The position numbers were made by a program, and so were the translations under genes. From Branchiostoma floridae (Eukaryota > Chordata > Leptocardii > Amphioxiformes > Branchiostomatidae): a DNA stretch of 64,000 nucleotides. Of the stretch, positions 3,101 through 60,998 are shown one piece after another. Each line of letters begins with the position of its first letter. Position 1 is the stretch's first letter. The stretch lies in contig NC_049982.1 in assembly GCF_000003815.2 (NCBI RefSeq), forward strand, positions 8,366,542-8,430,541. Reading direction: 5' to 3'. The notes under the pieces are model-generated. The model did no database searches. It was not told the origin of the DNA and saw only the letters and a list, made by a program, of their open reading frames with translations.

Positions 3101-6100
3101 AACTTTAATCTTGATTAAAGTTAATTAAGCAACTGGGTAGATGGTGCAAACAATCAGACATTTTTGGTAGCATCTTTCTTTTTTAGTCATTGATGAAAGA
3201 TAGTGGATTTTACCTGAAACGTACAATTACCATAACTTTTGTATTGTGTATAATGTCTAACTTCTTAATGTTATCTAGAGTCTGTTATAATCAAACTGTT
3301 GACAGCAGTTTGACAGCGGTTTGAATACGAGTTAGTCTTATCTTCTGCTCTTTGTCTCTTTTAGGCGTAACATTTGATGTTGAGTCAGAGTCCTTCTGTC
3401 TCCGAAATATCATGGAAGCCGACTTGCTCGCTTTCAAGGAAGACATTGAGGTAAATCTCTCAGTCTTTATGTACATTTGTAAGCTCCAATAATACATTTC
3501 CATCTCTACTTGCCAAAAGTACGGTGATAGACAGGATGGATGCTGGTATACAACAAAACACAATTTTCTTACTGGAGAAGTCAATAATGAAACAAATGAA
3601 ATTATAGAAAATATCATGAACTCTGTCCTTGGTGCTGAATCTAATGTGGTTGGTTTCACCTAGAGTCAAGTCACTCCAGTTGTACATTTTCAACTCTACA
3701 TGCCAAGAATACATTACTGCAAAAGTTTTATCTGTCCAACTAAATGTAGATCAATCAATCACTTTTTATGTTTAATCCAAAAATGTGACATTTGTTTATC
3801 TGTTAATCACAGGTGTTTGATTTATCTTTTCCTTAGGACATCTGTATCTCTGCTGTGAAAGAAAAGGACATTGAGGCCAAACTAGCACAGGTGGTGGCTG
3901 ACTGGAGCTTGCAGGAGTTCCAGTTTGCTGGCTTCAAGGCTCGTGGGGAGCTCCTCCTGAAGGGTGGTGAGACGTCAGAAATCGTGGCCCTGATGGAAGA
4001 TTCTCTCATGATCCTGGGCTCACTCCTCAGTAATAGGTCAGTCAAGATTGTTGGTAATTGCCCAGAGCTGTTTTACTTAGACCCATTTCACAGCAGTTTG
4101 ATGAGTAATGTGATGCCTTTTTCCTAGAAGGGATAAAGTCTTTGTCCTTGCTTGCATGACTGAACTTAGTGCAATCGGTGCACAGTGTTAAAATGACCTG
4201 AAGTATTCATACAAAGACAAAGAGATAACAAGTCAGTGCCATGATAAGTTTGGGAAAACTGTAAACTTTTGTTTTGCATTTTTTAAGAAATGTTTTGATT
4301 GAATAAAATATCTTTCCCTCAGGTACAATGCCCCGTTTAAGAAGGACATTCAGTCCTGGGTGCAGAAGCTGTCCAACAGTTCAGACATCATTGAGAACTG
4401 GCTGGTGGTACAGAACCTGTGGGTGTACCTGGAGGCTGTGTTCGTGGGAGGAGACATCGCAAAACAGCTGCCTCAGGTGAGCAATTGTAGCAGTTAGAGT
4501 TATGAGGAAACTCTTTTCTCATGCATTATAAAAACAAGGACAAACACTTTGCTCTGAATGAAGTAAAAAAGTGTTGAGTTTAAAGTTACCAAAAGCACTT
4601 CTTCCATCTTCCTTAGAAAGAACAACAGAAAATACCATGCTAATCAATTTGCTGACCTTCATCACCAGAACAGGTCTTCTTTAACTTCTCTAACAATCTC
4701 CAACTCTCCAGGAAGCCAAGCGGTTCCAGAACATCGACAAGTCGTGGGTGAAGATCATGACCCGTGCTCACGAGACGCCCAACGTGGTTAATTGCTGCGT
4801 GGGAGATGAGACGCTTGGACAGCTACTGCCACATCTGCTGGAGCAACTGGAGCTCTGCCAGAAATCTCTCACTGGGTCAGTCTAGCAGTACAGTCAAGCC
4901 TATAGATACTAGTGGACACTTTTGCAAAAGACCACAGGTCCCTTTGAATATTGTTTTCATTGATCAAAGAATGGAGAATCCTGTCTATGGTGGCCACCCA
5001 TCTACCCATTTTCCTCAAGTCCTTTGGGTGGTTGAAACAAATCACATGCAAATCTGTTTTCATTGATTGATTATCATCAATCATTGAGGCAAAGCAGTGT
5101 CAAGATGAAGAAGCTTGTTGATTTACTGGTTTGTTTTTATCGTAGGTATTTGGAGAAGAAACGTCTGGTGTTTCCACGGTTCTTTTTCATCTCTGACCCT
5201 GCACTTCTGGAGATTCTTGGTCAGGCCAGCGACTCTCATACTATCCAGGTTAGGTTCTTCATATTTGTAAAAGATGATAAGGAGAAACTAGTATAAGGCA
5301 AAATGTCATGTATGAAAGCCTTAAACTACATCTTTAGTACTTGCTAAGGCTCAAAATATGATATTTGATGCCTTCTTGCTCCATCTATATCATAGGACAG
5401 ATTTTAATCACATTTTGTTGAACATCTAGATAATGGCTAGTATTGCACTTCTTATTTGTTTTACATTTTCATAATGTCAATGTGTTAAGCAAGAAGTGAA
5501 TCATATTCATGTGTTTCCTTCCAGTCCCACCTGCTGGGTGTGTTTGAGAATGTGAACGAGGTGACATTTCACGAGAAAGACTATGACAGGATGTTGGCCT
5601 TTGTCTCCAGGGAGGGTGAGAGTGTCAATGTAAGTATAGAAAGATTGAAGTTCATACAGTCCTTTGTGTGTTGATGTGAGGTCTGTGTGGCGCAACGGTG
5701 AGAGCGTTTGACTTAGAACTAATAGGACCTGGGTTCAACACTTGCATTGCCCTGACTTTGTGCCCTTGGAAAAGGCAATTTATAAGATAAACAAGATAAG
5801 AGATCAGGCAAAGAGGCTCGGTTGGCTATGCCCAAAACACACACACAGATTTGGTGTGCCAGTGTTCTAACACACAGTGTCACAGATTTGGTGTGCCAGT
5901 GTTCCAACATCTGCACATTTGCCACCAAGAGCTGTAAATTTGTGTGTTGCTCTTCTTATGCATCCAGAACTAGAAGTATAATCTAACTTAATGTGTATCC
6001 ATACCTTCCCAGCTTGATAACCCTGTGATAGCCAAAGGTAATGTGGAGATCTGGTTAGGAGACCTACTCAGGGAGCAGCAGTCTTCACTGAAGGGAGTCA

Positions 6101-36065: not shown

Positions 36066-39000
36066 TCATGAGTTGTTACTCCTCTCCATCCCCACCATGG
36101 TGTGGCCTGCCCCAGTACTGACCCACACTGGTGTGTAACCCTGGAATGCCTCCACAGCTTTGGGTACCAACACATCCTCTTCGCCTCCATCTCCACACAT
36201 CCCATGTTCATTCCATCCCCAGCACACAACCTGGTCATCTGAGGAGGAAGCAAGGAGTCCTTTCAACATCTTTAACATACAAAGATGCAAAAACAAACAT
36301 TTCATTACCTGTCCTTGGATGTGCAAGTTTACCTAGAACAAAGGGAATGCATCAGTGATTCCACAGTGCATTCAACACAAATTCAGGGTGCCTAACTCAT
36401 CCAGTCACACTAAATAAGCAACGGCCTGTGTACGTCCACAAATTTGCAACCAGTAGGAAAAGTATCTTACCTATTATTGCCACATTATGCTCTGATCCAC
36501 ACTGCAGCTGTAGGGACAAAGTAGGAATTATAATTAGAGGAAGGAAGCTAATAAGTACAGTCAAACCTGTATTAGCGGCCACCTTTGCATAACGGCCACC
36601 TGCCCATAGTGGCCACTTTTTGTCGGTCCCTTGGATTCGTAATGATTAAGAAATAGGCTTAGCGGCCACCTGTCCAACGCGGCCACGGCCACACGATTTC
36701 CGGTCCCGCAGGTACAAAAACACTGCCGATTACGGCCACGCGGACCGCTGATCTATGTTTCGGCACGCGTTCGGCCATATACAGCTGCCGTATCATCACC
36801 CTACGCCGGATTTAAAACCTCTTTGATTTATTTTCAAAACAAAACTTCGTAAACTGGCGCTACCCATACCCGCCGACAAGCGAGGTCATATAAGGTCAAT
36901 AGACGACACCAATATTACAGAGGTAAATTGCGTTAAAGTTACGTTCTAATACACTATCGCTTAGGTTAATTTTTATCACAAAAACTTTCTAAATGAATTG
37001 TTACAAAGACAAAATGATATGAACTTCAGACTATGGTGGATTTTATTCTTACATTTATTAAGAGATAAGTCTAAAATGACGAGACTTTTCTTGTGAGTAC
37101 CACATTAGCGAACCTGACGTGTGAACGCGGGAGGGAACACACGGACGGCGAAGTATCAAAGGATACAAGACGAAAGATCAAAGAAATATGACGATACCGG
37201 TCTCTTCAGACAATATCAACTGTAGAACATTTAAAACTTTTTATAGCTTTTGTTTTCTTAATACATATAGTGTAAAATCATTGCAGTACATGTACAGTAC
37301 TGTATTATGTGAATAAAGATCAGTGGGTACTAAAACCATGTGTAACTTATTGCTTGTGGTCAATTAATTAGCATATTCTCTATAGTGGCCACCTCTCTAT
37401 AGTGGCCAATTTTGACCAGTCCCTTGAGTGGCCGCTATAGACAGGTTTGACTGTATAAGTGAGATATTTCTGCAGTCTGATTTACTTTGCAATATCAAAG
37501 ACCCCTACAAACATGGTGCATCTGTTTCTGATCCCTGGCTACTGTAATGGCTTGTTTAAATTCCTGACTAGTCTGCTGCAAAGTTATCACCATGAAGTTC
37601 ACCAGGACAGCAGGAATGGTACCCACTTGTTTCACTCCGTACAGTGAGGACAGCTCTGCAGGCTTTGAACAGCTGTGTGGCAGTGCTGTTCTGTCCCCAA
37701 ATCTACCCAGCTGTCCGTAGTCAGCTCTTCCCCATGTCCAAACTCTCCTGTCCTCTGAAACAATATTTTTCTTTTGTTTTCAATAACTCTTTCATGACAA
37801 TGGACAATAGCAATGGGATGGGGTTCTCTTCATTACAATGTTTCACATTGATAAAAAGCCTTCGAATCTTTTAATCAACAATCATCATTCCACCAGGTAA
37901 ATGATTTAGGATCATTACAGCAGAGATGATGTGAAATGCTGCTTTCAGTCGACCTGACAACAGAATTCCTGTTAGTTATTAGATACACATGGCATAATAG
38001 AAAAGAAAAGCCTACCTGTTATCACTGCAAGATGAGTCCATCCACTGTTGATTTGTACAACTTTCTTCCCATTGAATAGAGTTGAATCCAATCTGACAGG
38101 CAGTTGAACAATGTCCACAGAGCTTGTAGCAGAAGTTTTGTGAGGTACACATTTCAAAGTAGGGTCTGAAACAGTTTCCTGGGAAGTACCAGATTCAAGT
38201 TGATTGATGGATGAAGATGCTGCTGAGGTGGATTTAGTTGAATCTTGCATGTGATTGGTTGAAGCAGGTGATGATGTGTCATGACCTGTGTGATTGGATG
38301 TTTTGGCACTACTTTCATCATTGTTTCTGTTTGTCAGTTGGCCTTTGTCATTTCTTCCCCAGACATACAAGTCTCCAGAACCTGGAAAACAAAAAAGTTA
38401 CAGAAAGATGCAAGATAAGTGTACCTGATTGTAAGCTTATGCTGATAGTTACACATTTGGGAGAGTATCAAGAATTCTGTGAAGCCTTCAAAGGTACTAT
38501 TTGTATCTAGTATTTCTTATCAACTTACCAGTAAGAGCTATACTGTGGTAGGATCCTGCCTTGACAGCAACAATGGAGGACTCTGCATCAAGTTGTACTG
38601 TAAGTGGCAAACATGAGGCATTTATGAGCAAGCAGAATGTATTTAAAAGTTGGCTGAAAAACCCAAAGTCAACAAATATGCTACCATGACACTGCAAGTT
38701 CATGTACAAGACCCACTGCCATCTAAATGGTTCTGTGAATAAGATTACTATCACCATTTCATAATGCTACCTTTGCCAGGTTGTTTGGAGACTGTTGGCC
38801 TTCCTCCAATCGTCCCAGCTGACCTCTCTTTCCTGCACCCCATGTCCAGACTGAACCTGTATCTATAACACAAACAGCCAGACACTGTTTACCAAGTGTA
38901 CTCACTAGGGACAGGAAACAATGTCGTTGATCTTTATCAGCAATTAAGATTAAGTGCCAAGAAGGAAGACCACCCAAGCAGCATACATTTTACTTGTGCA

Positions 39001-41208
39001 AGATACAGTTCACTTGTGTTTCATCATAATAAATAAAGTTTTTGTAACTTACCATCCAGTGCCACTGCATGTCTCAGCCCAGCTGCAACACTTACTATTC
39101 TCACACCTTGTAAAGTCTGCCGGGACAACAAGCATAAGCATGTCTGCATACAAAATTTTGAAAACTGTTGTTTTCAGATCAGTAACTCGGTGACCGCTCT
39201 CACCGGTAACATAGACATGTAACCCAGTAACTCCATCAATACAACATTCAGTATGCTTGAATTTCAAACAATGTCTACTCAACATGTGTGTGGAAGTGCA
39301 CATCATGCTATTTATAGGACAAACATCTGCAACTACTACAACTAGGACAAACATCTGCAACTTCTTGGAATGTGTAATTTGGAGAACATTACCCTCAACC
39401 CATCTTACCTGTACAGGAGTTGGCGTTGAGGCGTGACCTTTCACCTCTGGAACACCAAGCTGACCAAAAGCATTGGAGCCCCAGGAGAACAGTTGTCTAC
39501 CTTCTGTAAAATACATGGATTACATCTATTATTATCCACACCAAATGTTTAATGTTTGTTCATCGTCGTACATAAAAGACCTTGGCTTCAGTTTCCACTA
39601 TGAGTCCGGCAATGGCCAGTCAATCCAAATCTGGCTCAAATTACCAATAAACCCACTAAAACATCCTGCCACCTCCTCAACAGCTTGTTGAGTGGAAAAG
39701 TCAGTGTAAGATGTGCTGGTTCCCACCTGTAACAGCAAGAGTGAAGTCCCATCCACATGATACAGTATCCATGGGTGCAGTCAGGGCGGTGACCTGGGTC
39801 AGGACTGACACGTCCTCCCTGTGTCCCAGCCCCAGCTGACCCTTCTGGTTCCACCCACACACAAACAACTTGCCTTCAGCTGAAAAAAAGTCAACATAGC
39901 ATCTAATGAGTCCACACATGCAGTCTTTTGTCTCTGTTTTATTATTGCTGCTTTTCTGCCGGCGGATCCTTAGAAATCCCCTGGCAGTGCTTGCCGTATT
40001 GGCCCACCTTGTGACAGGACAGCGGTTCGCCACAACCGGAGCACTTCTTCACTCTTTTCGGGGTCCTCCCCATGATTAAGGTGGAAGGAGGAATGGAAGA
40101 ACGGAGGAGACGGAGAAAGAAATGCAGAGACTCTGTGATGCAGCTTGAGATCTGATGGCGGGAGTGAGTGGGGATCCCACGTGTAGGTTAGACCCTGGGA
40201 GCGACTGCATCCAATTAACAACTTTGATCCCCAGGGGGCCCAAAGATCCACTATTACCCGGTAAAGCTAGTTGGAAGCATTTGCCTTCACAGTGCAGTAC
40301 TGTCCAATTACACACAGACAGATTTCCATTATGTTTTGATAGCCAGGCAAACTACATACATGGTTCATCTAGGTGATCCCATAACTCTTACTTAGGATAC
40401 ATCAATGTGCTGGTTTAAAGATATCAAGGTTGCTGGTATAGAGGCATTTCATTGATGACGTGATAATCATGATTTGTATTGGCTGGCGACTGATGTTGGC
40501 AACTAATTGGATCAGCAGCAGCATGTACACTGAAATCTAACATGGTGCAAATAATGTCATATGCAAAGCCTGTATATATATTATATACACACAGACATTC
40601 ACCAACAAGGTTGCGTTACCAGAGATAAAGACTGTGTGACCTCCGCCCCCTGTCACAGCCTTGACCCTGAAGTTGACCCCCTCCAGCTGCTGTGGGGAGT
40701 GGCGGTCGTCACGGTGACCCACGCCCAGTTGGCCATAGCTGTTGGCCCCCTATAGCAGGAAAAGGTTTCAGGAATATCGAATTACATTTTATGACCTACA
40801 CACATTTGTAGAGTAGTAGAGTAGATTTCTTCGGCCAGGGAGGTTTCGTCTTGCTCCAGCCTAGGTCGTTTATTGAGTTTATTATTGAGTTTATTGTGAT
40901 ACCCTTTAGCTCATTTCTCATCTAATTGTCATTAGTGGGTGGTCCAACGCCTTACTACAAACACGTTTTGAAACCATTGATACGGGTTGATATGGGGCAA
41001 GTAACAGTGTTTGAGTTCGTTTTCCAAACTGAACTGAACTGAACTTCCCACTATACACACTATCATTTAAAGTATCAACAAGCACATCACACATCACATG
41101 TGCAAACGTCGTCTGCTCTCAGCATAAAACACTTGTCAAATGTCATAAGCAAACAATAAAAAAAGACTAGGCAATACTCACCCATGAGAAAATGAGCTGT
41201 TCTTCCAT
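36066..41208 (-). CDS. SERGEF: SERGEF-like RCC1-repeat protein, 11 coding exons
   Basis: This is a seven-blade RCC1 propeller, related to human secretion-regulating guanine nucleotide exchange factor (458 aa), reported to bind the exocyst protein SEC5. The model gives 438-444 aa. Coding exons from the start: 41182-41208 (MEEQLIFSW), 40620-40749, 39727-39879, 39409-39503, 39053-39116, 38771-38862, 38529-38580 or 38597, 38016-38381, 37627-37754, 36471-36507, 36066-36238. Repeat signatures in order: GANSYGQLG, GWNQKGQLGLG, GSNAFGQLG, GAGKRGQLG, GRNDKGQL, GRADYGQLG, GWNEHGMCGDG. CGWDF, AAGLRHAVA, SGWTHLA and CGSEHNVAIIG match SERGEF positions. Exon 8 adds a long Ser/Thr-rich insert. Exon 7 does not keep frame from its best acceptor. 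Intron 9 holds a ~900-bp transposon. GEF activity is family-based and cannot be seen here. Confidence 0.9.
36558..37453 (+). mobile_element. Non-autonomous TA-flanked DNA transposon, copy B (896 bp)
   Basis: This copy is nearly identical to the one at 19544-20447, in the same orientation, with only scattered substitutions and small indels. It has the same CAGTCAAACCTGT termini and flanking TA (36556-36557, 37454-37455). It lies in SERGEF intron 9, antisense to that gene. Like copy A it has no coding frame. Confidence 0.85.
39942..40073 (-). other. 43-codon zinc-knuckle-like ORF, probable retroelement remnant
   Basis: Minus-strand ATG at 40073 to TAA at 39942 encodes MGRTPKRVKKCSGCGEPLSC and continues HKVGQYGKHCQG. 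The CxxC...H...C arrangement after a basic stretch resembles short Cys/His gag-type modules in invertebrate retroelements. It lies in SERGEF intron 2 with locally higher GC than the rest of the intron. No neighbouring pol sequence was recognised. Confidence 0.4.
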
Positions 41209-42770: not shown

Positions 42771-45700
42771 ATGATGGAACAGTTCCAGGGGAATGTGGTG
42801 TCAACTGTCAATCAAACCATCACAACAGACCAGATCGCTGCCATCCAGAGTCAGCTGCAACAGAGAACTCAAGCTCAGGTACGCTCATTCTCACAGTCTC
42901 TTGTCTAATACAAATCTCTTCAATATTTTATTTATCCCTTCATTGGTTTATTATGAAAGAAGTGAAACATTCTCAACAGCCCCAGTTCTCTACCAAGGAC
43001 CAAGTGTTGGTGTATTTTGGTCAGTGTGTCTTTCCATTCGGCCTTTCTAAGTACTTTACTGCTGTTCTGTGAATGACATTAACAAGATGTGAAATGACTT
43101 GTAGGTGAAAACAGAAGCAAAAGCAGCTGGTATTTTTCTTCTGGAGTCAACATGTGTCCCAATTGTAAGAATTTTCATTTATTTTTCATCTGCTTTGTTC
43201 TTTTCTGAAAGCATAGTGAAGAGTAAGATATTTTTCCCCATCCTCTCAGGTGACAGTGCAGGCTGCCCAGCAGACATCGGTCAGCGGGGCGCTGACGGTG
43301 ACCAGTCCCAGCACACCCGTCAGTCTGACACAGGCAGGGCAGCCGCAGCAGCTGCAGCTACAGCTGGGAGGTCAGCAGGTGCCAGGACAGGTGGTACAGG
43401 TAGGACACTTGTATCCTGATGGAACCTGCCTTTACACGACTTTTCAAATGACAGATTCAGCTGGAGATGCACACCGGCCAAGCGGCTAAAATTAAGAGAA
43501 AAAAAGCAGATCCAGAGAACTTCACAACAGGCCTGAGTCAACCTACAAATGTTGCAACTTCAGCCATAGCCATAGGCCTGATATCAGTTTTAACTGAAAA
43601 ATTCTTGTTATTATTATAAAAGATATTTGTTAACATTATACATGTACTTGTTTTAAAAGCTATTTGTTCACAGGTTTCAGGTGCGCAGGGCCAGCAGGCT
43701 GTGACAGCAGGACAGCAGATCATGGTACAGCTGCCTCAACAGGGTGGACAGCAACCCCAGACCATCACCATCCCCGTGTCGGGCACCAACCAGCTGCAGC
43801 AGATCCAGGTGCTGCAGCCGCAACAGCTGCAGGTGCAGCAGTCGGGACAGCAGCAGCAACAGCAGGTGCAACAAGGTGAGGTGGTATGGTCTAAGCAGAG
43901 TGGGTTTTGTGAAGCCCTTTTCCAAATTTTAGGTGCACCATATTGAAAGACATACATTGTACTTGACAGTACTTCTCTTCTGGATGTTCAGTGCAGTAAA
44001 ACTTTCACAATTATTCTTGGAAAGAGCATTCCCTCCTAAATCAGGGTATCATTGTTTCCATGTACTTCTCAAGCTTATTTAACATCTAATATTTTTCCAA
44101 CTGTCTGCAAGTAATCATAGACAATTGGTAGCCGAATGGCTTCTTAAGTGTGCTAAATGGTAAGATGTTACTTATGAATCTTTGTTAACAATGCTACTTC
44201 TGTTCTCTCCTGATTCCTTCCTCACTTCTGTCCATCCAGTCGGCCTTATCCAGAATGCCCAGGGGCAGATCATCATCCAGCAGCCTGTACAGGGAGGACT
44301 GGTTGCTGGGCAACAGTTGGGCACCACGCCCGACGGCCAGGCCATCTTCTACCAACCCGTGGCTGGGAATGATGGTACGATCCAAGTGCAGCAGGGACAG
44401 GCACAGACACCACAGAGTGGTAGGTCATGGTTATCAGGGTGTTCAGGTTCTTTAGGAGATTCTGATTCTTCTTTGTATCAATATTTCAACAACATGAATG
44501 AATGAATGAAAATTTAAAACATTATATTGTATGTCATGCTTAAGAGTTGTTTTACTAACTTAAGTCTGATCATATGCTACTGCAAAACTTTTGTTGTGTT
44601 TCATTTTTGCAGTTTTCAAAGTAACTAATCCGCCAGTACTTCACTGTGAAATGTGTCCCTTGTTTAGCTACTGTACCACAGAATTGTCTCACTTTCAGCC
44701 GTGAATTTCAAACACTGCAAAAACCATCCATTTTCATCCTACCACGAAACAAAACCACTGCAAAACTAAATTAATTTAAAGTTCTGTCACTATGAACCGC
44801 TGTTACAGTTTTTTTTCACATTTCTCATAATATCCCAACTCCTCCAGGTGTTGTACAGGTGCCCACAGCTGTGAACTTGAACCAGAGCCAGGTGCTGTCC
44901 TCCCCGACAGTGGCTGCAGCTGCCACCACCACGCAGCTGCCCCAGCCCATGACTATCCAGACGGTACCTGCTGTAGCTGGGACCACACTCAACACCTCGG
45001 GAGGGCAGGTGGTCATGGTGGGTACACTCAAGGGTTTGCTTTTCTTTACAGTCTTCTCTACAATTCATCAATTGGTACATATTGTGGAAAAACTGAAGTT
45101 TTTTTTTTACAATTATCTTTACAATTCCTGGTAGAAAGAGTATACAACATTGTTTATAGAATTAACATCTGTGTCGGGTTAGAAGTAAGATGGTCAGAAC
45201 TACCAATTTCTCTCCATCACCAGTAATACATACTCACCCCAAATTTTACTCGCCAGTGCTGCCCTTCTCAGAAAAACTGAAGCACTCAAATCAGTGTACA
45301 TAAATGTACATTGTATGACGACCTATTCTTTCGAGCGTGGCCTCCATATGGTGCAGTGCAATTTACTTTGCTTCAGGGTTTGGGAGAAAGTTGAAACTTT
45401 GCTGAACCATTGTTCTCCCCTCTCCAGATGGTGCCGGGTGCAGGCGGTGTGCCCACCATGCAGAGAATACCCCTGCCTGGTGCAGAGCTGCTGGAGGAAG
45501 AGCCGCTGTACGTCAATGCCAAACAGTACCACCGCATCCTGAAGAGGAGGCAGGCACGCGCCAAACTGGAGGCAGAGGGCAAGATCCCTAAGGAGAGAAG
45601 GGTGAGTGGCACATGTGGAACGGACAGTGTTGATAGAACAGTAGAACGTAACAGGGGTGGAACTTTTGCATTATCTCGAACAGGTGAAGTTGTCATTGTT

Positions 45701-49540: not shown

Positions 49541-52500
49541 ATGGGGAAGAAGACCCAAACACAGACTTCTCCAGTCACCTCTGCAGCTGGTACCTCCCCA
49601 CCCACTATGCCTGGCGCTGGTCGTAACGGTCCAGACATGGCCAATTTGTCTCGGAGTGGACGTGAGAAGCGGCATCCTTCCCCACGTGGGAGAGAACACC
49701 AGAGGAGACAGGAGAGAAACAACGTAACCCAACAAGAACAAAGCACACCCAGGAGAAGAAAAGCATCATCAAGTGTAGTTAAGGAAGAGAGGAGGGGATT
49801 GGCTGAGATGGACACTTCCAATGGTACAGGGTCTGACAGTGCAGCTGGGAGAGCACAGAGGAAAAGGAGGGAGGCAGGATCTGGAGAACATGGTCAAGGG
49901 GACAAAGGTAATGGTATATCCAATACATGTTACATTCAATAATCCAAACAATGACCAGTAATAACAAAAGATATTTAAAAGAGTTTATATCTTGGCCCCA
50001 CTGAATTGTTTTTTCTTTCTTTCTATCAATAATGGCTACACTACCTTGGTGATGTAGTTTTTGTTACGACTTTCAGGTGAGAACAATGGTGCAGTTGAAA
50101 AACGGCATCCTCACAAGACTGGACAGAAAAGCCCAAAGAAGGAAGTAAAAACTGTGCACCAACCAACACCAACATCTCCAGGTGCCCAAGGTCATCACAA
50201 GGGCAAGAAGAGGAAAGCCCCACTTCGCAACGAAGCTAGGCAAAGTGTAAATGATAGCTCTGGACCAAAACCATCACCAAAGAAAAGACGTCACAGCAGA
50301 GAATCAGTACCTGCTTCTGCCGAGGGGCATGCATTGACAGAGGGTGCAAGTAGTTCGTCTAAGAAACCGGACTCAGGTGCTACAGCACAGGACTCTGAAG
50401 CTACCACAAGGAGTAAATTAAAAGAAAAGAAAAAAGGAACAAAAAGACAACAGGAATCTTCTCTTGAAACAGGCACTCATACGGGTAACAGAAGAGCAGA
50501 CAAGGTGACAGATGAGGATAGTGGTGCAGCAGGGAGTAGCTCAAGTGCCAAAGGACAGAAGAGGAAAAAGAAGAGGAAGAAGGAATCAGAACCAAAACTG
50601 AAGACAGAGGGGGCTGGGGCCTCAAGGACAGAAACTGCAGGTACAGTAAACATAAGAAGTACTCCAAATTCCCTTCAAATTGTATAGGTAAACATTTACA
50701 TCTAATCTTGTAAGATACTATAATGTTAGTTTGTTTCATCAAAAAGTAATACAAGTAGTACATGTGATGTCACTGTGATGCACTGGCAGGCAGAAAGCAG
50801 GTGGAAGACAAAAGATTAATTTACATATTGATATGCTAATCAAAATTAGATATCAACTAGTTATATAATCTGCTGTCCTGTTAAGCACCAGTCATAGAAT
50901 ACCCTGGATGTAAACAAAAACAGTAATCACTTTTATTACATACATGAGTATTGCATCTTCTCTTCCTCAGAGGCTGAGGCTGAGAAGTGTGCCATCTGTC
51001 TGGAGGAGCTGACAGACCAGCGTGTGGGGACTCCTGCCTGCTGTCGGCACTCCTACTGTCTGGACTGTATACAGACATGGGCACAGGTAAGCACTTATGG
51101 CTCTCTTTTTTCATTGTCTTAGGGGATCTGTTTGGGTATAGGATGCACGTGACAGAATAGATTTATCAATATTCATAAGGTTTTATGTAGCATTTGCCAC
51201 AACAAAGCAGCAGTTTTGTTTTGTATAAGACAAGGATTGTAAGGATAAGATAGGTGACATGAAGTAAGAAATAGTGACTAATGCATCATGACTGAAATAC
51301 AATGTACTTTTTCTACTTGGATTTAGCTGATGATAATGATAGCTTGAATGTTTCCTGCTCTGTATGGTAATGATCCCAGAGAGACTTGTTTCTTCCTGTA
51401 ATGCGTCTTCTTATTCTTATTCCCCAGAGGAAAAATAAATGCCCGGTTGACAACAAAACGTTCCATGAGATTGTTGCCCGAGAGAAACTGGGAGGTGCCG
51501 TCACCAACAGGGTAGGTAGTCTGTCCTCACTTCTTGTAGCTTTTGAGAACTAAACTGCAGCCCAAAACTGCTGGGATAGCTGGAATGTATCTCAAAAAAT
51601 AGATGTTGGGTGTGATTGATTTTCTAGTTACCTCTACCAAGAAAGTTCAGGTTTCATAATTGTCTTTTTGTGTGCTTTTTATTGTTTTTCAAGTAAATAA
51701 TTTGAATTATGTAATGATTTAGCATACAAGAAGTGATACAAAACATACACTGTCTGTATGTTTGTGCACTGGATTAGATAATTTTGTCCTGTGTCGTCAT
51801 CAGTACCTATTCATCATAATTGCCCTCTGACCCCACAGATAGCAGTTCCTGACAGGAACGAGGTCCATGCTGAAGACGAGGATGACCTGTTCACCATCAA
51901 CATCGACGGGGAGGAGGTGAACATCCTGGAACAGCTGAACGGGTACTTCCTGAGGAACCAGCAGGGGTGGGATGATGATGATGATGATGATGGCTGGGTG
52001 ACATTTGATGAAGATAGTGATGACAGTGACAATGATGAGGTATGTATATACTGACATGTACATAAAAGTGACATTTATCATCCCATATTACAGTACTAGT
52101 ATCTGCATCTGCTGCAGCCGCATCACACGTTGCATACAGTTGCCCCTGTGAGACTTAGTGCTCCAATAGATGAGAGGGTGGAGAAGGAATTGCACACCCC
52201 TCCTTCACCATTAAAGTCATGTGCAGGTCCGGCAAAGAGGCAAATGCCTGTATGCCTGCTCATCTGTCGAATCGACAGGAGAATCCAAAAAAAAAAAAGT
52301 ATTGTATGTACATTAAGTGTGTATATACAACAAGGTGTATTCCGTATCACCCAAGGTACCAGCCCAAACGCGGGAAGGATTGCCTGAAGGCCGGAGGGTG
52401 ATCCGACCCGCGGGAGGGCTGGGACCGAGGGTGATGTGGAATACACCGTGTTGTATTTTATTTATGTCATACCCACCTGAGAAACCCATGTTTTTATACG

Positions 52501-54109
52501 AAATGCGCCAGAAGTTGAACAGATTTGGTGCCTTTGAACAAAAGGTGTTACAACCGCAATGTTCCAACGTCCGAATCAGGTCTTCGAATTGCCAACCGTG
52601 GCGCACTCGGCCCGCTCGAAATGGTTCGATTTACTCGAAGGAAGCCTGTATGATACAAACTTCGAGCCTGTGTGATACGGAAAGTTATCACACGTATCGA
52701 ACGTTTTCGCGTCACAGGTATGACATAGGTACAAACTAAGCTACATTGTTTGATCATGTTTTACAAAAAAGCCTTGAGCCTGGGTACCATGCTGGTTTAA
52801 TGTATGCTTGCAACTGGTGGGTGCTGAGACTAGTTGAGCCAACTTGCACACAAACAAGTATGGTACCAAGGCTACAAAGTTGCAAGATGTATATATCAAA
52901 GAACTAGGTTAAGGAGGCCAGATCATCATCAAGGACATTCTTTTAGAGATATTCCATGATAACCTCAGAACAGCAACAACTGGGGCTGATCTAGTGCTGA
53001 GACATGAGATATTGCCGCTGCAGCCACAGATTCCATGATCAATAACAGTGTAACACATGTTGTCAGATGAAGGGTTGGAGAGAGTCCAAACAGAAGAGTG
53101 CCTGGCTCCCCCAGTTTCGGTTCAATTACCATCTACCTTGCATGAAGCATCCACAGTTTCTGGTTGTGTCTTCTATATACTAGTAAATAGCTGGAAAGTC
53201 AGGAATAATTTCCTTTCCTTGTATCTGTTGTGTCAGGATGAATATGACAGCGATGAGGATTCCTACACAGATGGGGATGACAGCAGTGAGGAGGAGGATG
53301 ACACCAGTGACCCTGAAGCTGGCAGCTTGAATGGATCTGAGGGTGTAAGCATGATTTCGTTGTCTTGTCACAGTTTGATTTCTACACTGCCACACTTGTT
53401 TTTAAACCCAAAAGGGGAGTGTAGACCTTCAAGTTTTTTATGCATGTCCAAGCTTCATGTCCAATCTGCTGCCTTCTTCACAAGAATGCAGGACAGTGGA
53501 GAGTTGGCAGCACTCATTTTTGTCTTTGATCAAACTTTAAAACTCTTTACAACATTAACTAACAACACAGATGAACTCTTGGTATGTGGTGACTGGTAAC
53601 ATCAATTAATGTTTTAAAAAAGACCACCATTGTCTGTTTTTCAGGACTGGGAGACCTTTTATGCTGACCAGTCTGACTACTATGATGACAGCGATGACGG
53701 TAGTGATGGTGGAGGTAGTCCTGATGAGGCTGATAGTGGCAGTGATGACTACAGTGATAGTCATGACGACAGTGGTGAGGATGGTAATGAGGATGACAAC
53801 TTCTATAGTGGTCATAATGATGATTATGGACCAGAGGCCGACAGCAGCGATGGTAGTTCTCACACTGACCAGGATGGCTCTGAGGAAGGTTCAGGTTATG
53901 ATGACCAAAGTGGATATGATGAAAACGGGGATAATTACGATGATGGCTACAACAATGAATACGGTAATGACGGTTATGATGGCTATGGTTATGATGGATA
54001 CAATGAAGATACCTATGATGATGGTTATGACAATGGGTATGGTGATGATTACAATGATAGCAATGACCAGAGTTCTGATGCAGACAGTGATACCGGTAGC
54101 GACTGGTGA
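49541..54109 (+). CDS. RING-finger protein with acidic repetitive tail (PHRF1/SCAF11-type RING), 7 exons
   Basis: Seven exons give 634 aa: 49537-49907 (ATG 49541, after acceptor TTAG), 50077-50640, 50971-51086, 51428-51511, 51839-52039, 53237-53344, 53645-54109. Exons 1-2 are disordered, Lys/Arg/Ser-rich, with nuclear-localisation-like KGKKRKAP and KRKKKRKKE. Exons 3-4 encode the RING: CAIC, ACCRHSYC, LDC and KCPVD, a C3HC3D ligand set as in PHRF1 and SCAF11. The tail NKTFHEIVAREKLGG...IAV also resembles the region after the PHRF1 RING. No PHD finger or SRI domain is seen. Exons 5-7 are extremely Asp/Glu/Ser/Tyr/Gly-rich (a run of seven Asp, then YDGYGYDGY-like repeats), ending GSDW*. A nuclear E3 ubiquitin ligase is the inferred role. 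A divergent paralog lies on the opposite strand at 56793-60998. The gene has no vertebrate name I can assign. Confidence 0.82.
52325..52735. repeat. Nested foldback element in RING gene intron 5
   Basis: TACAACAAGGTGTATTCC (52326) pairs with GGAATACACCGTGTTGTA (ending about 52456). Inside, GGTACCAGCCC pairs with GGGCTGGGACC, a GC-rich stem unlike its AT-rich surroundings. A second inverted pair, TATGTCATACC (about 52464) and GGTATGACATA (ending about 52728), follows. This is probably a mobile element with complex termini; the family is not recognised. Confidence 0.55.
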
Positions 54110-56792
54110 TGCCGATGTTGACATCCTGCCAACTGACAACATTTTCCTCTGATTTCCTGAATAGATGGGAAACTATACAACCATTGATCTCCAGCTACTG
54201 TTGGTTGTTTTTCTTCATCTTTTCTGGAACAGTCATTGTAAAAAGCTTCATGAGTGCATCATAGAATTTTGTTGGCAAAATTGAATGGTTGCAAAGTACA
54301 GTGTATCTCACATTTTCTGTGTACATGAGCTTGGTGATTCAGTCGAGGTTATGAAAGTAAAACTAGAAGATTGTTTGTTTCTAAACTCAGAAGATATAGA
54401 AATGTATATTGCTTTAAGTTTATGAGCATGTTACCAACGTTAGTGCTATTACAACTATGTTCCATAAAACTTGTCCATCTGTCAGCATTCTTTCATGCAA
54501 TGGATTGAAATGTTCTATGATTGATTCATATCTTTGTCTGGTCAGCTATTTGCTCTCATGTTTACAAAGTGACAGGAAAGAAAATGTCATACCATTACAA
54601 TGACTTCTCAATATAAGTTGCACTCTTATTACAACAAAAGTTAAACTTTTATGCAAAAACAAAATAAAGTTGTTAAAGTTGCAAAATTGCTCTTGATGAT
54701 TGACCTTGAATCTTTTTCATATTACCCTGACAGGATAATGGTTTTCATTGTAACAACATGTACTTGTATATTATATTGTCACCACACAGGTGCTTACAGT
54801 ATGTTGTACAGTACAGGCACTTAGGCCTTGGGGTTACAGTTTTATACTTGTGTGTGATCAAACCAGTCATCTTCTCCCACCTGTTTATATCCCAAGTATT
54901 AAAATGTAACATGTAGAAATACCTGCTGTTAGCTTTGGAACAAACACTAATATCAAAAAGTAACAAGACACAATCACCGAACATCAGATCATACTTTTTA
55001 ATGCAACAAAACTGGATAATTGTACATATTGTAATCCCGTGAACAGTTTCGTGTAGCATTGATAACATTGCGATAGTTTTACTGTATAAGTCGGCGCAGT
55101 TCAGTTTTTACTGCAAAGCAGATGTTTTTATCAATAATAAACCAATTACTACATAAACCAATTACTACATAATGTATACATGTTTGCTGTAAACTTTCCA
55201 TTGCTCAGACTACAGCTGTTGTTTGTTAAATTTAATAATACACATGTACTACAGTTCAGTGTTACCAAGAGATACGATCCTGTAGGATAATAGAGAAACC
55301 AGGAGGGATTGGTTGTGTCTTATGAAGGCAATTTAATGGTACAAATTAATTTCCAGCACAAATGTTCATATTTCACTCAGTCTTTTATGTTACTTTTTTT
55401 CTCAACTTCTTTTCCTTTTAGTATATTGTCCCTTCAGCACTTTATTTATTTTCACAACACAATTCAGGTATATTTTTCTGTCAACTATATTCTTTGCTTC
55501 TCTACATATAATAATATATCCAGAACATTTGAATGCTCCACAAAAGGTTCCAACATAAACTAACATCTTTTATATCATCTCACAGGCTGTCCTTACTTAT
55601 ATTCTGCAAAATAACATGAACAGTGTCAGTTTCTACTTTTCATCCAACAACTGGAACATTCTTACTTAATATTTGGCAAGTTCTGTTCTGTTTAACAAAC
55701 TTGTGGTGCCCTTTCAACACTCCACACTAGATCTGGATCTCAAACTCTAGTGCCAAGTCAACATTAACTAATTGATAAATAATATGACAAAAAAAAGTAA
55801 ATACACATTCATTCACTCTAGTTTCAATATACATGTGTACTTTTTTGGCATATTAACTTGTAAAGAGGGAAGTCCCCTCTTATCTAGCATCTATGCACAT
55901 TAGAGTAAGAATTTGGCACTTTCAACATAGCCCTTTACTAGTGAAAACATATTTTTCACATCAAGCTGAACCATCTTTCCACCATCACTGCATGATCAAT
56001 CCAGGCACACCATATTGTGGGAGTCATGTCAGAACAGAAGACTACATCAAGGAGCTTTTATAGAAGCTACTTAGTTACATGGAAGGGCTGCTAGACAAGT
56101 CACAATGAGAGTGCAGGGTCAGAAAACAATGGAACTACTGAGATGTACATGTCTCAACATACATGTGATAATACATTGTACTGGCATTTTAAATGCATTA
56201 TCTGCAAACCATTTTTCTCTGTTGGAAATCTACAACTCACCTAAACATTACTTTTGTCTTAAACAAAATAGCATATATCTGATTCAGTACTGGCATATTG
56301 CCACAAACTCAGACTTCCATTTGCAAGAAAAACATTATCTAATAGCACGTACATATATATAGACTATATCGACATTTCTTGAAATACATTTGAAATCTGG
56401 ATTACTGGATCACTATTTTTAACAAATTATTTGTCATTACCTTAATATTTTTCAAATGATTAGGAGAGTATTTCAACCGACAGGGTTCAGTTTTACACAA
56501 CGGGTTATAGGCCTAAGGTTTCATCTCAGTTAAATTAGACCACCAATTCTGACTCATAACTTGAAAAGTCGTGTGTTGGTATAAGTCAATCTTGATCAAA
56601 GCTGAAATTATATTTCCAACACAAAAACCAGAAAATTTGGGCAATTTTTGTGTTGGTAGTTACAATTTAACTTTGATCTAGAATCATGTTAACATGTAAA
56701 GAACCAAGAACCCATGTACTAGAGCATATAATGTCAACAAGAACTGATGTATTCCAGCTTCCTTGTTTTCCTCACAACATAGTTCACTGTGC
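54110..56792. other. Convergent 3' UTRs of the two RING genes
   Basis: This 2.7-kb interval separates the stop codons of the tail-to-tail RING genes. AATAAA at 54663-54668 is a good poly(A) signal for the plus-strand gene, about 555 bases after its stop. No clear minus-strand AATAAA was seen near 56793; TTTATTTATT at about 55441 (AATAAA on minus) is a distant candidate. The sequence is AT-rich and nothing coding was recognised. Confidence 0.55.
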
Positions 56793-59700
56793 CTAGTTTT
56801 CATCAGAACTACTTGAATCACTCCACCAACGGGGCCATTGCCAATGCGCCTGCTGGTGGTAACCACTTCCATAGTCATAGCCATTCCAGATCTGTGACTG
56901 TTGATAGGCCCACATATCGTAACGACGGGCCCAATCTGGCTGTGCATCACCCGACTGCCTCTGTCCATTGGACCAATGTGCAGAGCCAGCACCCCAGTGT
57001 GCAAAGTGGGCGCCCTGGTAAGGATGTGCGATACGTGACCTTTCATCATCATAATCCCAACTATCTTCCCCATCATCCTGCTCTTCTTGCTCATCGTCCC
57101 AATTCCCTTCCTCAGCACCCCAGTCCCCATGGTAATCATCCCTACTTCCATGCCCATCATCCCAATCTTCTTGGTGGGAGTTATCCCACTCTTCTGGTGC
57201 ACGTGTGAAATCGCAGCCTACTACCCAATCCCCCTGGTCAGAGTCGGAATTCCCTTCCTCAGTACCCCAGTCCCCATGGTAATCATCCCCACTTCCATGC
57301 CCATCATTCCTATCTTCCTGGTGGGAGTTATCCCTCTCTTCTGGTGCACGTCTGTAACGGCAGGCTATTACCCAATCCCCCTGATCAGAGTGTTCAGAGC
57401 CACCATTTACATTGGTGTCCCGACGTTCTGAGTCACTACTTATTGGGATAACAGTGCTATCATCATCATCATCAGATGGGTAATCGTCAAAAGCAGGCGG
57501 TGGCTCAATAGAGGGCATATCATACCAACCACGCTGGTCATCCCGCCAATTCTCTGGATCATCATATGTATCATCCTCAAATATAGAGGCAAATGTGGGC
57601 AGATATTCTTCATCATCCGGAAGACTAGAACTGTCATCCCAACCCCTTTCATCATAACCCCAGTTCCCTGGACCAGCGTAACCTCTCTGATCATTGTTGT
57701 GATCCATCTGACCCCTGGCGTCACTTCTGTTCTCTGTTACCGGTAACAGACTGTTAGGCTGGTTGCCGGCCGGTACTACTCCGTTTCTATTGTTCTGGTT
57801 CTGATGGTGAAGACAACGGGGGGAAGGTAAATCAATACATAGACATTAGAGCACTTTTGAGGGGATGGTTTTACATTGAAAGTTTTTACAAGCATGAAAT
57901 TCAAGCTGTCTTGATCATATCACCATGCAATCCTTCAGTCATTCTCTTCCAACACAAAGGATGTAAGTCACCACCTTTCAGTCATCTCTATGTTTTGCTG
58001 GAGAGAGTTTAACTTGGTTGACATGATAATGATACATTTTTAAGTACAGAGTACAAGCCCTCTAAAACACAAGTCTTTTATATCTTTGAACTAATCATCC
58101 ATGTCTGGTGACACTTGTTCCTGCTAGGTACAATATATTATGTCAGTAATAGTAATACTGGTGACTTAGGTCAGTAGGACTTGTGAACATACCACACTTG
58201 ACCATGAACAATACAGTACAATAGTACTGGGTAACATAGTAGAAATACAGGGAACAGGAAATGTGATAGAATGACAAAACCAATCTAACAGAGGGTCTGT
58301 TATTGGATAACAACTTCAGTAACAGGTGCAGTGATTGGCTAATAAAATAAATTTCTTGAATGGCTTACACAGTGCTGAACATGAACTTAATACTCAAATA
58401 CTGCAATAAACTTCTGAGGTTAATAACAGGGACATCTTTACATTAAATTACATAAAACATTAATAAGTAATGTGTTAAATAAGTGGGCATCATTGGCATC
58501 AATAACAAAGGTGATGGGTTAGGACTGACAGGTATGACAAGTATGTAGCACCAAACACTAAATCTGATACATCCGTGCAGTGCCAGTGAGGTGATCTTCT
58601 TCACTATTTCAGAGGTGTGATGATCAACAGATGTGGAGATGTTATTGACACAACATTTGCCCCGCTCCAGTTAAGTGCATGTTTAGTACCAGCGTCACTT
58701 TACCACAGGGCAGTTACCTCAACCACTGGCATCTGGTCCTTCCCATCTAGGCCACACAGTACAAGTGTCTGGAACTGTTTGTTGTCGATTGGGCAGGTGT
58801 TCCTCCTCTGTGGAAAACATCACGACAGAACAACATGAGACACAGGCAAGCAACAAATCAAACCTGTCCTGCACCATCATCAAAGTTTGTACAGGCATTC
58901 CTGACTTTCTACAGCACTAGAAGAACAGTACTGTTTGATGTTTTATTGGGATCTTATTAGGTTATTTTTGGTATTACCAAAAAATAACCTAACAAGATCC
59001 CAAGGACACTTCAAGGTGTGACCCAAAGGCCACTCCAAGGAAGGGTTACAAACAATGTAGGACTGCCTAGTCAGAAATATCACAGCTCACTAAGTGTGAG
59101 GACTACCTGACCCAACAGAAGCTGCAGTTAGGAAGGCTGCTAAGGTAAAATCAGGAAGAGTACCATACTCTTTTCAATTGTTTGAAAATAGTGAAATCTG
59201 TGTGTGGAAGAACCTTTGCTATCAAGTGAAAATGAGCACATAATCACATGTATGAGCATCACTTGCATAACTTCCCAATTAGTTCCAAAAATTAAAGTCT
59301 ATATTTACAAGGGAAAACTCAAGAAAACGCTGCTTTTTTTTTTTTATTGTTGCTCAGTGGTTGTGTGTACCTGTTGCCAGGTCTGCAGACATCCCAGACA
59401 GAAGACATGGCGGCAGACGTCAGGGTGTGCTAGCTGCTGGGTCGTCAGCTCAGACAGACAGATGGGACAACAGTCAGGCTCCGCTGCTGGGAAATAAACA
59501 CATGGAAACATTAAAGTAATCCAACTGTTTGTATATAATGCATACTGATGATATGTTCAGATGGCTTTGATGTATCCTTCAGTTCAGAAATGGAGAAGTT
59601 ATGACAGACTACTACACACAATAAAAAAAATCTTATTGAAACTGACTTGTGAAAGACTCTCAGCATCTTGGCAACGAAAAAAATAAAGTTCAAGATGGTA

Positions 59701-60998
59701 TAGAAATGTGGACTACAAAATGACTGAAATTTCAATTCCCAATTACTGCATTTACCTATCTTCTGCTTCTTGGTTGCTTCTGCTGTTGTAGGACTTTCAT
59801 TTTGTTTCTTAGCTGATTTGACTGTTCCTGTCTGCTTGATCCCTTTCACAGCTATGCCTGCTTCTGCTGTTGCCTGGCTGCCCTGGCTACCAAATGCCTG
59901 GCTGCCTGTTCTTTTCTTCCCTTTGGTTTGAGTTGCCACCTTAGTTTGCTTAACTCCACGCTTTCTCTCACCAGACTGTGCTGTTCCTCCCCTTGGAGTG
60001 GCTGTCGTCCCATTGGCTTTCCTACCTGTCTTCCTCTCAGCTGGTCGAGCTTTCCCCCGAGTTGGCACTGCTGTTTTTCTGTTACCTTGACGTGCCCCAG
60101 ATGACTTTTGGGGCCTTGAGGAAGTTGGGCGCGTGCTTTGTGCTGTTCCTGGTCTCTGCCTCACGGCAGTTCCCCGAATAGTGCCTGCCTGGCTGACATT
60201 AACGGATACCTGCTTGCTGCTGTTTTTCTTCCGTTGTGCTGCTTTGGCTCTTGGTTGCAGCTGTGTGGATTGCTGTCTATTTGTAGCCTGTGCATAACTA
60301 CCCTGTGAGTGTGAGCGTGAGCTTGACCTGGTCTGTATCGGTGATCGCCTGTGGGGAGCTCTCCTTGTTGTTTCGCCAGTTATCCCACTGTGTGAAGCAC
60401 TTTGCCAAAGGCGTGGATGTTTGATACTGCTCCTTGTATTGTGATTTGTTCCATGTTGTAATGTGCTTATCCCAGCATCTTGATCCCTTCTACCGTTGCC
60501 ATGGTGCTCTCCAGCCTGGCTGGTTGTGGCCTCCTCTGCCCTCTCTCTGCTGTCACTCCTGCTCTGAGATGCGGAGGGAGGATGTCTGGATGTCCTCCGG
60601 CCGCTCCTTGTCTGTACAGGACTTGTTCTCCAGTAACCTCCCCTCCCTCTCCCCTCACTGCCGGCACTCCTGCTCTGGGCTGTAGAGGCTGGATGTTTTG
60701 GTATGTCCCCCACACCACTTCTTGTCTTCACAGGACTTCTTCTAAAATAACCAACCCTCTCCCTTTGTTGGACTCTTTCTCCTTCATCTTGCTCTTCATA
60801 GAACCTCCTTCTCATTGGCTGTGCAGTGAACCCTGCTGTCAATTCAGTGTTGTGTTGGGATCTTGATGAGCATGATGACTTCGATCTTGGACCTTTCCTG
60901 CTGGTGTTGCTTGTGCTGGTACAAGCATTCCATGAGTGATATTGTTTTTGTCCATTTTGCTTTCTGTGCTGCTTTGACTGAGCAACTGCTTTAGGCAT
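56793..60998 (-). CDS. RING-finger protein with basic N-terminus and acidic Trp/Asp-rich tail, 4 coding exons
   Basis: Four coding exons give 818 aa. They are 59756-60998 (first in-frame ATG at 60998, MPKAVAQSKQH; acceptor at 61015), 59371-59486, 58718-58807 and 56793-57800. Exon 1 is Arg/Ser/Thr/Lys-rich and disordered, with three copies of a short motif (SPVKTRSG, SPVQTRSG, SPIQTRSS). Exons 2-3 form the RING: CPIC, VCRHVFC, LGC and TCPID, the C3HC3D set. The first break is at TWQQ|RRN, the same place as in the plus-strand paralog. Exon 4 is Asp/Trp/Gly/Tyr-rich and contains a 49-residue tandem duplication (GDWVIACRYRRAPEERDN and GDWVVGCDFTRAPEEWDN units), ending SSSSDEN*. The role is inferred as a nuclear RING-type ubiquitin ligase. 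No PHD or SRI domain is seen. The first non-coding exon was not located. Confidence 0.8.
58946..59003. repeat. Near-perfect 28-bp hairpin
   Basis: TTGGGATCTTATTAGGTTAT and the following bases pair with the strand ending 59003, with one substitution, one indel and almost no loop (centre about 58974). It lies in intron 2 of the minus-strand RING gene. It could be a tiny palindromic element. Confidence 0.8.

Follow-up and report, generated by a model that had tools for sequence, protein, structure and literature searches.

A convergent pair of PHRF1-like RING genes without a PHD in the lancelet Branchiostoma floridae

Introduction

SCAF11 is a relative of PHRF1 that has a CPxD RING and no known PHD, and the RING of Topors is typically of the C3HC4 type, with Cys as the last zinc ligand. 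Contacts of a RING with the ubiquitin-conjugating enzyme (E2) involve an Ile after the first Cys, a Trp in the helix and a Pro after the seventh ligand. C3HC3D is a recognised RING type, to which 5 of 139 fly RINGs belong according to PMC3166285. For human PHRF1, PMC4650548 places the RING at residues 106–150 and the PHD at residues 185–233, and describes both binding to H3K36me2/3 and RING ubiquitin ligase (E3) activity. Here we analyse two neighbouring RING genes, A and B, of the lancelet Branchiostoma floridae, which lie in a window of 64,000 nucleotides (C4:8366542-8430541, C4 being contig NC_049982.1), together with searches of the genome (513 Mb).

Because of their reciprocal genome matches, alignments, common intron phases and exon length, A and B are best read as paralogues of PHRF1 without its PHD and C-terminal domain. 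The pair is real and had been well described by an earlier sequence-only reading, yet it is more ordinary than the "ligase family not yet described" proposed there; of that claim the paralogy stands, while the degree of novelty is reduced to two truncated PHRF1 paralogues. At this locus the loss of domains from duplicated genes can be followed cleanly, the exon boundaries being still legible: one enzyme has stayed intact, and its two copies retain of its domains the RING only. A change at the linchpin residue, shared by both copies, makes the pair of interest.

Results and Discussion

A pair of spliced RING genes

The two genes are convergent, their 3' ends facing each other with 2.7 kb between them, and the earlier observation of two spliced RING genes as a pair was confirmed. 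The longest stop-free frames at the pair measure 506 and 350 codons, against a maximum of 189 in window positions 1-49000; since these frames are long and genome-wide protein searches recover B from A and A from B, the models go beyond chance. The RING is the sole domain above the Pfam cut-off in each protein (zf-RING_2, 34.3 bits in A and 32.0 bits in B; cut-off 27.3). NCBIfam gave two matches below cut-off for A and none for B. Searches of PDB sequences returned general RINGs only, the best being an equine herpesvirus RING and LNX2 and, in another search, RNF4; these were set aside.

Similarity to PHRF1

The lancelet PHRF1 gene lies on the same contig, about 1.35 Mb from the pair, and runs on the minus strand from 9787205 down to about 9776777. 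Its first exons encode an acidic N-terminus, then CPICLNEFELQEVGTPVNCQHNFCIDCILEWSK and NTNSCPVDRKQFNTVLVRPKLGGKVIKK, each closed by an exon boundary, and then the PHD; the RING-region exons measure 146 and 84 nt, the latter at C4:9785841-9785758. The SCAF11-like_C exons follow some 8 kb further on, on the same strand, and lead to the stop at about 9776777. Pfam E-values are 4e-12 for the RING, 7e-13 for the PHD and 7e-14 for SCAF11-like_C, an architecture at 9.786 Mb that we take to be that of PHRF1. SCAF11-like_C (PF23030) had a single match in the genome, at this gene (one candidate scored). A literature search joining PHRF1 and amphioxus produced one paper, on dopamine receptors.

The genome searches score exon by exon and keep the best candidates only, and may miss more divergent or finely split copies. 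The RING of A with its following sequence gave 14 matches: three to A itself, one to B (E 3.8e-7), two to consecutive PHRF1 exons (C4:9785.8-9786.1 kb; E 1.7e-7 and 0.059) and eight to other RINGs (4.7e-5 or worse). With B, six matches were obtained, namely three to B, one to A (1.8e-6), one to PHRF1 (0.0024) and one to another RING (0.065). The PHRF1 RING gave 40, comprising three self matches, A (1.5e-7), B (5e-5) and 35 others from 6e-4 upwards, A and B thus being its first and second best non-self matches. No third copy resembling A or B stood out in these own-genome searches at E up to 0.1.

In the alignments, A matches PHRF1 over three exons (38/89 identical, 85.5 bits) and the match ends at residue 210, one before the PHD match; B matches over a shorter stretch (23/54 identical, 64.3 bits). 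PHRF1, A and B have a C3HC3D RING with CP[VI]D and share the intron phases 1-0-0 around it; the exon after the RING-internal intron measures 84 nt in both PHRF1 and A, against 90 nt in B, and A also retains the linker to the PHD. Unlike PHRF1, both proteins lack a PHD and SCAF11-like_C in the Pfam scan, carry a basic N-terminus and an acidic tail after the RING, and have Asn in place of the linchpin Arg. The PHD and SCAF11-like_C of lancelet PHRF1, compared with the window by tblastn, reached E-values of 9.3 and 2.3 at best, and no PHD relic was found. The earlier likening of the RING and the following segment to PHRF1, without PHD, is borne out by these results and by the grouping of the RINGs described below.

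The RING domain and its internal intron

The C3HC3D ligand order proposed for both proteins is correct in the alignment, where 30 of 58 RING residues are identical between A and B. Eight zinc ligands in RING spacing are retained in both, as are the Ile, Trp and Pro of the E2 face. By BLASTP the proteins match with 82.4 bits (E 2e-20, 28% identity over 226 residues), a match driven by the RING. At the codon level 28 of 56 RING codons are identical, with a nonsynonymous rate (dN) of 0.43 and a synonymous rate (dS) of 0.85; a dN/dS of about 0.5 looks like the mark of constraint on the domain. Over these 56 codons dS is lowest for A-B and rises to 1.26 for A-PHRF1 and 1.49 for B-PHRF1, values near saturation.

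The RING exons lie where the sequence-only reading had placed them, in phase 1 to 0 in both genes. Their equal length of 116 nt holds for A; for B it is less certain, the acceptor CAGCAG permitting 113 nt equally. That reading had further taken the interruption at TWAQ/R and TWQQ/R as strong evidence of local duplication, which did not survive comparison. The lancelet PHRF1 RING is interrupted at the same codon (EWSK/N), and a predicted GT donor at this codon with a fitting downstream exon occurs in a gene on contig C15 that we call Topors-like and in a RING-H2 gene on C4. Since PHRF1, Topors-like and RING-H2 genes are also cut there, the intron is weak evidence for a local duplication, and a common intron within the RING should not be taken as proof of a recent one. 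Among eight RING loci, picked because their match ended before the seventh ligand so that the counts give no frequency, these two had the same-codon GT donor (L044 and L045, both with a fitting next exon), five had a GT one codon later (L043 and L047-L050, of which L048 and L050 are near-copies) and L046 had neither. Fifteen outgroup RINGs and both RINGs of locus L051 were uninterrupted to the seventh ligand, as the six-frame search favours. In L051 (C8:12447500-12451500) one open frame holds two tandem RINGs, both reading CPLDG with Asp as the last ligand.

Phylogeny of the RINGs

In a tree of 18 RINGs from this genome, A, B and PHRF1 grouped together (support 96/98) and A grouped with B (94/90); joining A to PHRF1 costs 1.69 log units and was not rejected by the approximately unbiased test (p-AU 0.316). 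A 23-row tree was built from the same rows plus the Topors-like RING, two CPLD RINGs and two RING-H2 RINGs. Here A and B again paired (94/76), and A, B, PHRF1 and the Topors-like RING formed a group (94/99); A with PHRF1 (p-AU 0.313), B with PHRF1 (0.269) and B with Topors-like (0.398) were not rejected. Of 58 aligned positions, 11 carry a letter common to A and B but different in PHRF1; for A and PHRF1 against B there are 8 such positions, and for B and PHRF1 against A there are 4. These letters moderately favour the A-B pair. The local duplication claimed at the outset therefore remains the best reading on sequence by these counts, although A with PHRF1 is not rejected in either tree.

Three RING genes on C4 with frames that look macro-domain-like to us (L026-L028, at 16.07-16.08, 16.10-16.11 and 17.39-17.40 Mb) came up in the search with A (E 4.7e-5 to 0.038); two of the three are clearly related. 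Their last ligand is Cys and they fall outside the group of A, B and PHRF1; they were rejected as relatives of the pair.

The Topors-like gene on C15 (L052) resembles the pair in that its RING is cut at the same codon, and its RING is, with PHRF1, the nearest one in the 23-row tree. It differs in its C3HC4 RING (CPLC, against CPVD and CPID in A and B) and in lacking a donor 84 nt into the exon that follows. A Pfam scan of the locus brought up mainly RING models and no Topors model, and its long frame matched no family; the name is our assumption. Downstream of its RING exons, on the minus strand some 3300-4600 from the start of the locus, lies a long repeat array of the form ..STGVTQQLHTGEYRTGV..

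Charged arms and tails

The basic, Ser-rich N-terminus and the acidic C-terminus ascribed to both genes are borne out by composition: Lys and Arg make up 22% of the N-terminal part of A and 20% of that of B, Ser 12% and 13%, and Asp and Glu 37% and 24% of the C-terminal parts, the tail of B containing 21 Trp. The N-terminus of A is probably disordered, judging from its composition. In A and B the charge order is basic before the RING and acidic after it; in PHRF1 the acidic stretch precedes the RING. The acidic tail of A begins at the point of PHRF1's acidic linker and continues in place of the PHD.

The tails of A and B match each other only weakly (E 0.34). That of B contains an in-frame tandem duplication of 147 nt (57088-57381, minus strand; 49 residues, DQGDWV...DYHGDWG, 88% identical in DNA); 14.5 nonsynonymous and 2.5 synonymous changes separate the two copies (dN 0.13, dS 0.10). 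These changes fit a tail under weak constraint, though they number only 17. Together with the weak match they make the "rapidly evolving tails" of the sequence-only reading plausible. The basic arm of B (60310-60760, minus strand) holds three copies of [RT]SP[VI][KQ]TRS, two of them inside a degenerate 114-nt tandem repeat at 60533-60759.

The linchpin residue and predicted function

At the linchpin, the position directly behind the last zinc ligand, lancelet PHRF1 has Arg (CPVDR), and both A (CPVDN) and B (CPIDN) have Asn. In our reading an Arg at this place is a defining trait of PHRF1, which A and B do not share. RBX1 reads CPLDN in the alignment, with Asp as the last ligand and then an Asn linchpin, as in A and B; the protein, a small partner of cullins, has an additional zinc site and is not known to carry charged arms of this kind. 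Exchange of this residue in RBX1 raised (N98R) or lowered (N98A) activity with UBE2D2, according to PMC12326332. Because A and B carry Asn as RBX1 does, the comparison predicts a ligase weaker or slower than PHRF1, or one selective for its E2. As both copies carry the Arg-to-Asn change, they are natural paralogues in which the role of this residue can be tested.

From their sequence, A and B would act as nuclear RING E3 ligases. The RING would recruit the E2~ubiquitin conjugate, the E2-contact positions being kept, and the basic arm would serve as a nuclear or nucleic-acid anchor. The acidic tail may engage histones or other basic partners, or else bend back onto the basic arm, replacing the PHD that reads H3K36 methylation. 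Targeting must differ from that of PHRF1, because without a PHD this mark would not be read by the known route.

Origin of the pair

We consider it likely that A and B are RING paralogues derived from PHRF1 by a copy of its 5' part, which later doubled to form the present inverted and convergent arrangement. The copied stretch would have run from the intron preceding the RING to the acidic linker preceding the PHD and become a separate gene, probably on the chromosome that carries PHRF1; this gene would then have doubled to give A and B, in an order of events that we infer. The PHD and the C-terminal domain would have been lost, a polybasic N-terminus replacing the acidic one and an acidic tail replacing the PHD. 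More tentatively, and with greater doubt than belief, the RING of PHRF1 may have been freed from both the chromatin-reading PHD and the C-terminal domain and turned into a pair of charge-polar nuclear ligases, with the linchpin Asn gained before the copies split. If true, this would be a small natural experiment, in which a single residue retunes a RING ligase and the targeting arms are left free to evolve.

Several points weigh against this derivation. The match of A to PHRF1 (85.5 bits) is about as good as its match to B (82.4 bits), and A is as close to a provisional human PHRF1 RING sequence (28/56) as to B. The group of A, B and PHRF1 is absent from the best 23-row tree and is held 1.5 log units lower (p-AU 0.425). 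A tree with two such provisional human RINGs lacks A with B in its best topology (held 0.49 lower, p-AU 0.36), and in it the grouping of A and B with SCAF11 scores better than the free tree by 0.41 log units (p-AU 0.56); the phylogeny with PHRF1, Topors and SCAF11 suggested beforehand speaks for PHRF1 among the 18 lancelet RINGs and gives no firm placement with the human ones. The RING-PHD and SCAF11-like_C exons are assigned to one PHRF1 gene from their strand, order and span of 8-10 kb, and the gene models and kinship are drawn from the DNA of one lancelet genome. As to function, the loss of the linchpin Arg in both copies means that ligase activity is not assured, and the nuclear site and the partners are suggested by charge.

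The pair might instead have left PHRF1 in two separate events and become neighbours later, A being nearer to PHRF1 and no local duplication having taken place. It would fit this that the alignment of A, unlike that of B, continues past the RING, over the LGG.V motif and on to the acidic linker, that the tests do not reject A with PHRF1 and that these two share eight letters against B, VGT among them. We regard such a history as rather unlikely, given that A and B share more letters against PHRF1 (including QT, QR and the Asn linchpin), have the lowest dS and group at 94/90, that B finds A better than it finds PHRF1, and that both have the basic-RING-acidic layout at a distance of 2.7 kb. Descent from an old, PHD-less sister of PHRF1 of the SCAF11 type, which lost its C-terminal domain in lancelets, seems less probable again. 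SCAF11 itself has no known PHD and its grouping with A and B was not rejected, but SCAF11-like_C was not found in A and B, its sole genome match is at PHRF1 (an intron-split copy could be missed), the pair sits on the same contig as PHRF1, the SCAF11 letters were provisional, and A retains the 84-nt exon and the linker to the PHD, as a gene copied from one with a PHD should. Very little speaks for placing A and B in the Topors line: the Topors-like gene has the donor at the same RING codon, is among the 40 matches of the PHRF1 RING (E 0.0046) and joins the group in the larger tree, where B with Topors-like is tolerated, but its RING closes with Cys as the last ligand (CPLCK), the exon that follows has no GT donor at 84 nt, and neither the 14 matches of A nor the six of B include it.

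A different question is whether the RINGs are still ligases, or whether A and B have become scaffolds or are decaying, their RING serving only to bind partners. We hold the latter to be unlikely. The lost linchpin Arg and the rates in the tail repeat of B would agree with it, but the eight zinc ligands, the E2-facing positions, the splice sites and the frames are intact in both genes, the RING dN/dS is about 0.5, and a Tyr at the linchpin does not keep XIAP from ubiquitinating SMAC (PMC12326332).

Features of the locus and neighbouring genes

The coordinates of the gene models are collected in Table 1.

Table 1. Coding features of genes A and B, in window positions.
Feature	Coordinates	Strand	Description	Basis
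Gene A	49541-54109	+	Coding span; 7 coding exons, 634 aa	Splice model; 6/6 introns GT-AG, frame open
Gene A coding exons	49541-49907, 50077-50640, 50971-51086, 51428-51511, 51839-52039, 53237-53344, 53645-54109	+		
Gene A exons 1-2	49541-49907, 50077-50640	+	Polybasic, Ser-rich N-terminus; clusters e.g. KKRRHSR, KRKKKRKK	Splice model, charge profile
Gene A RING exon	50971-51086	+	116 nt, phase 1 to 0; zinc ligands 1-6, C-C-C-H-C-C	
Gene A exon 4	51428-51511	+	84 nt, phase 0 to 0; final ligands C, D (CPVDN), then ...REKLGGAVTNR	
Gene A exon 5	51839-52039	+	Start IAVPDRNEVHAEDEDD aligns with PHRF1 to the residue preceding the PHD; acidic sequence thereafter, no PHD	
Gene A exons 6-7	53237-53344, 53645-54109	+	Acidic tail rich in D, E, G, Y and S; last base of the stop codon at 54109	
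Gene B	60998-56793	-	Coding span; 4 coding exons, 818 aa	Splice model; 3/3 introns GT-AG, frame open
Gene B coding exons	60998-59756, 59486-59371, 58807-58718, 57800-56793	-		
Gene B exon 1	59756-60998	-	Basic, Ser-rich N-terminus; 3 copies of the [RT]SP[VI][KQ]TRS motif	
Gene B RING exon	59371-59486	-	116 nt, or 113 nt via the second AG of CAGCAG; phase 1 to 0	
Gene B exon 3	58718-58807	-	90 nt, phase 0 to 0; final ligands C, D (CPIDN); PHRF1 similarity stops inside	
Gene B exon 4	56793-57800	-	Acidic, Trp-rich tail; in-frame 147-nt tandem duplication	

An AATAAA-type signal lies at 54663, downstream of the stop codon of gene A. Intron 2 of gene B contains a 35-nt inverted repeat with a 10-nt loop (58935-59014, 86% complementary), which could be a small mobile element.

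Elsewhere in the window, RCC1 repeats were matched by five of 57 scanned open frames (best E 2.3e-11); the scan does not say which five, and the frame at 39049-39519 (minus strand) reads RCC1-like. An RCC1-type gene lies to the left of the pair, at about 37500-40750 on the minus strand. Two of the 57 frames matched NF-YA (CBFB_NFYA, 1.8e-13) and one matched RRM (2.9e-16). An NF-YA-like motif, EPLYVNAKQYHRILKR, is found at 45500-45547 on the plus strand.

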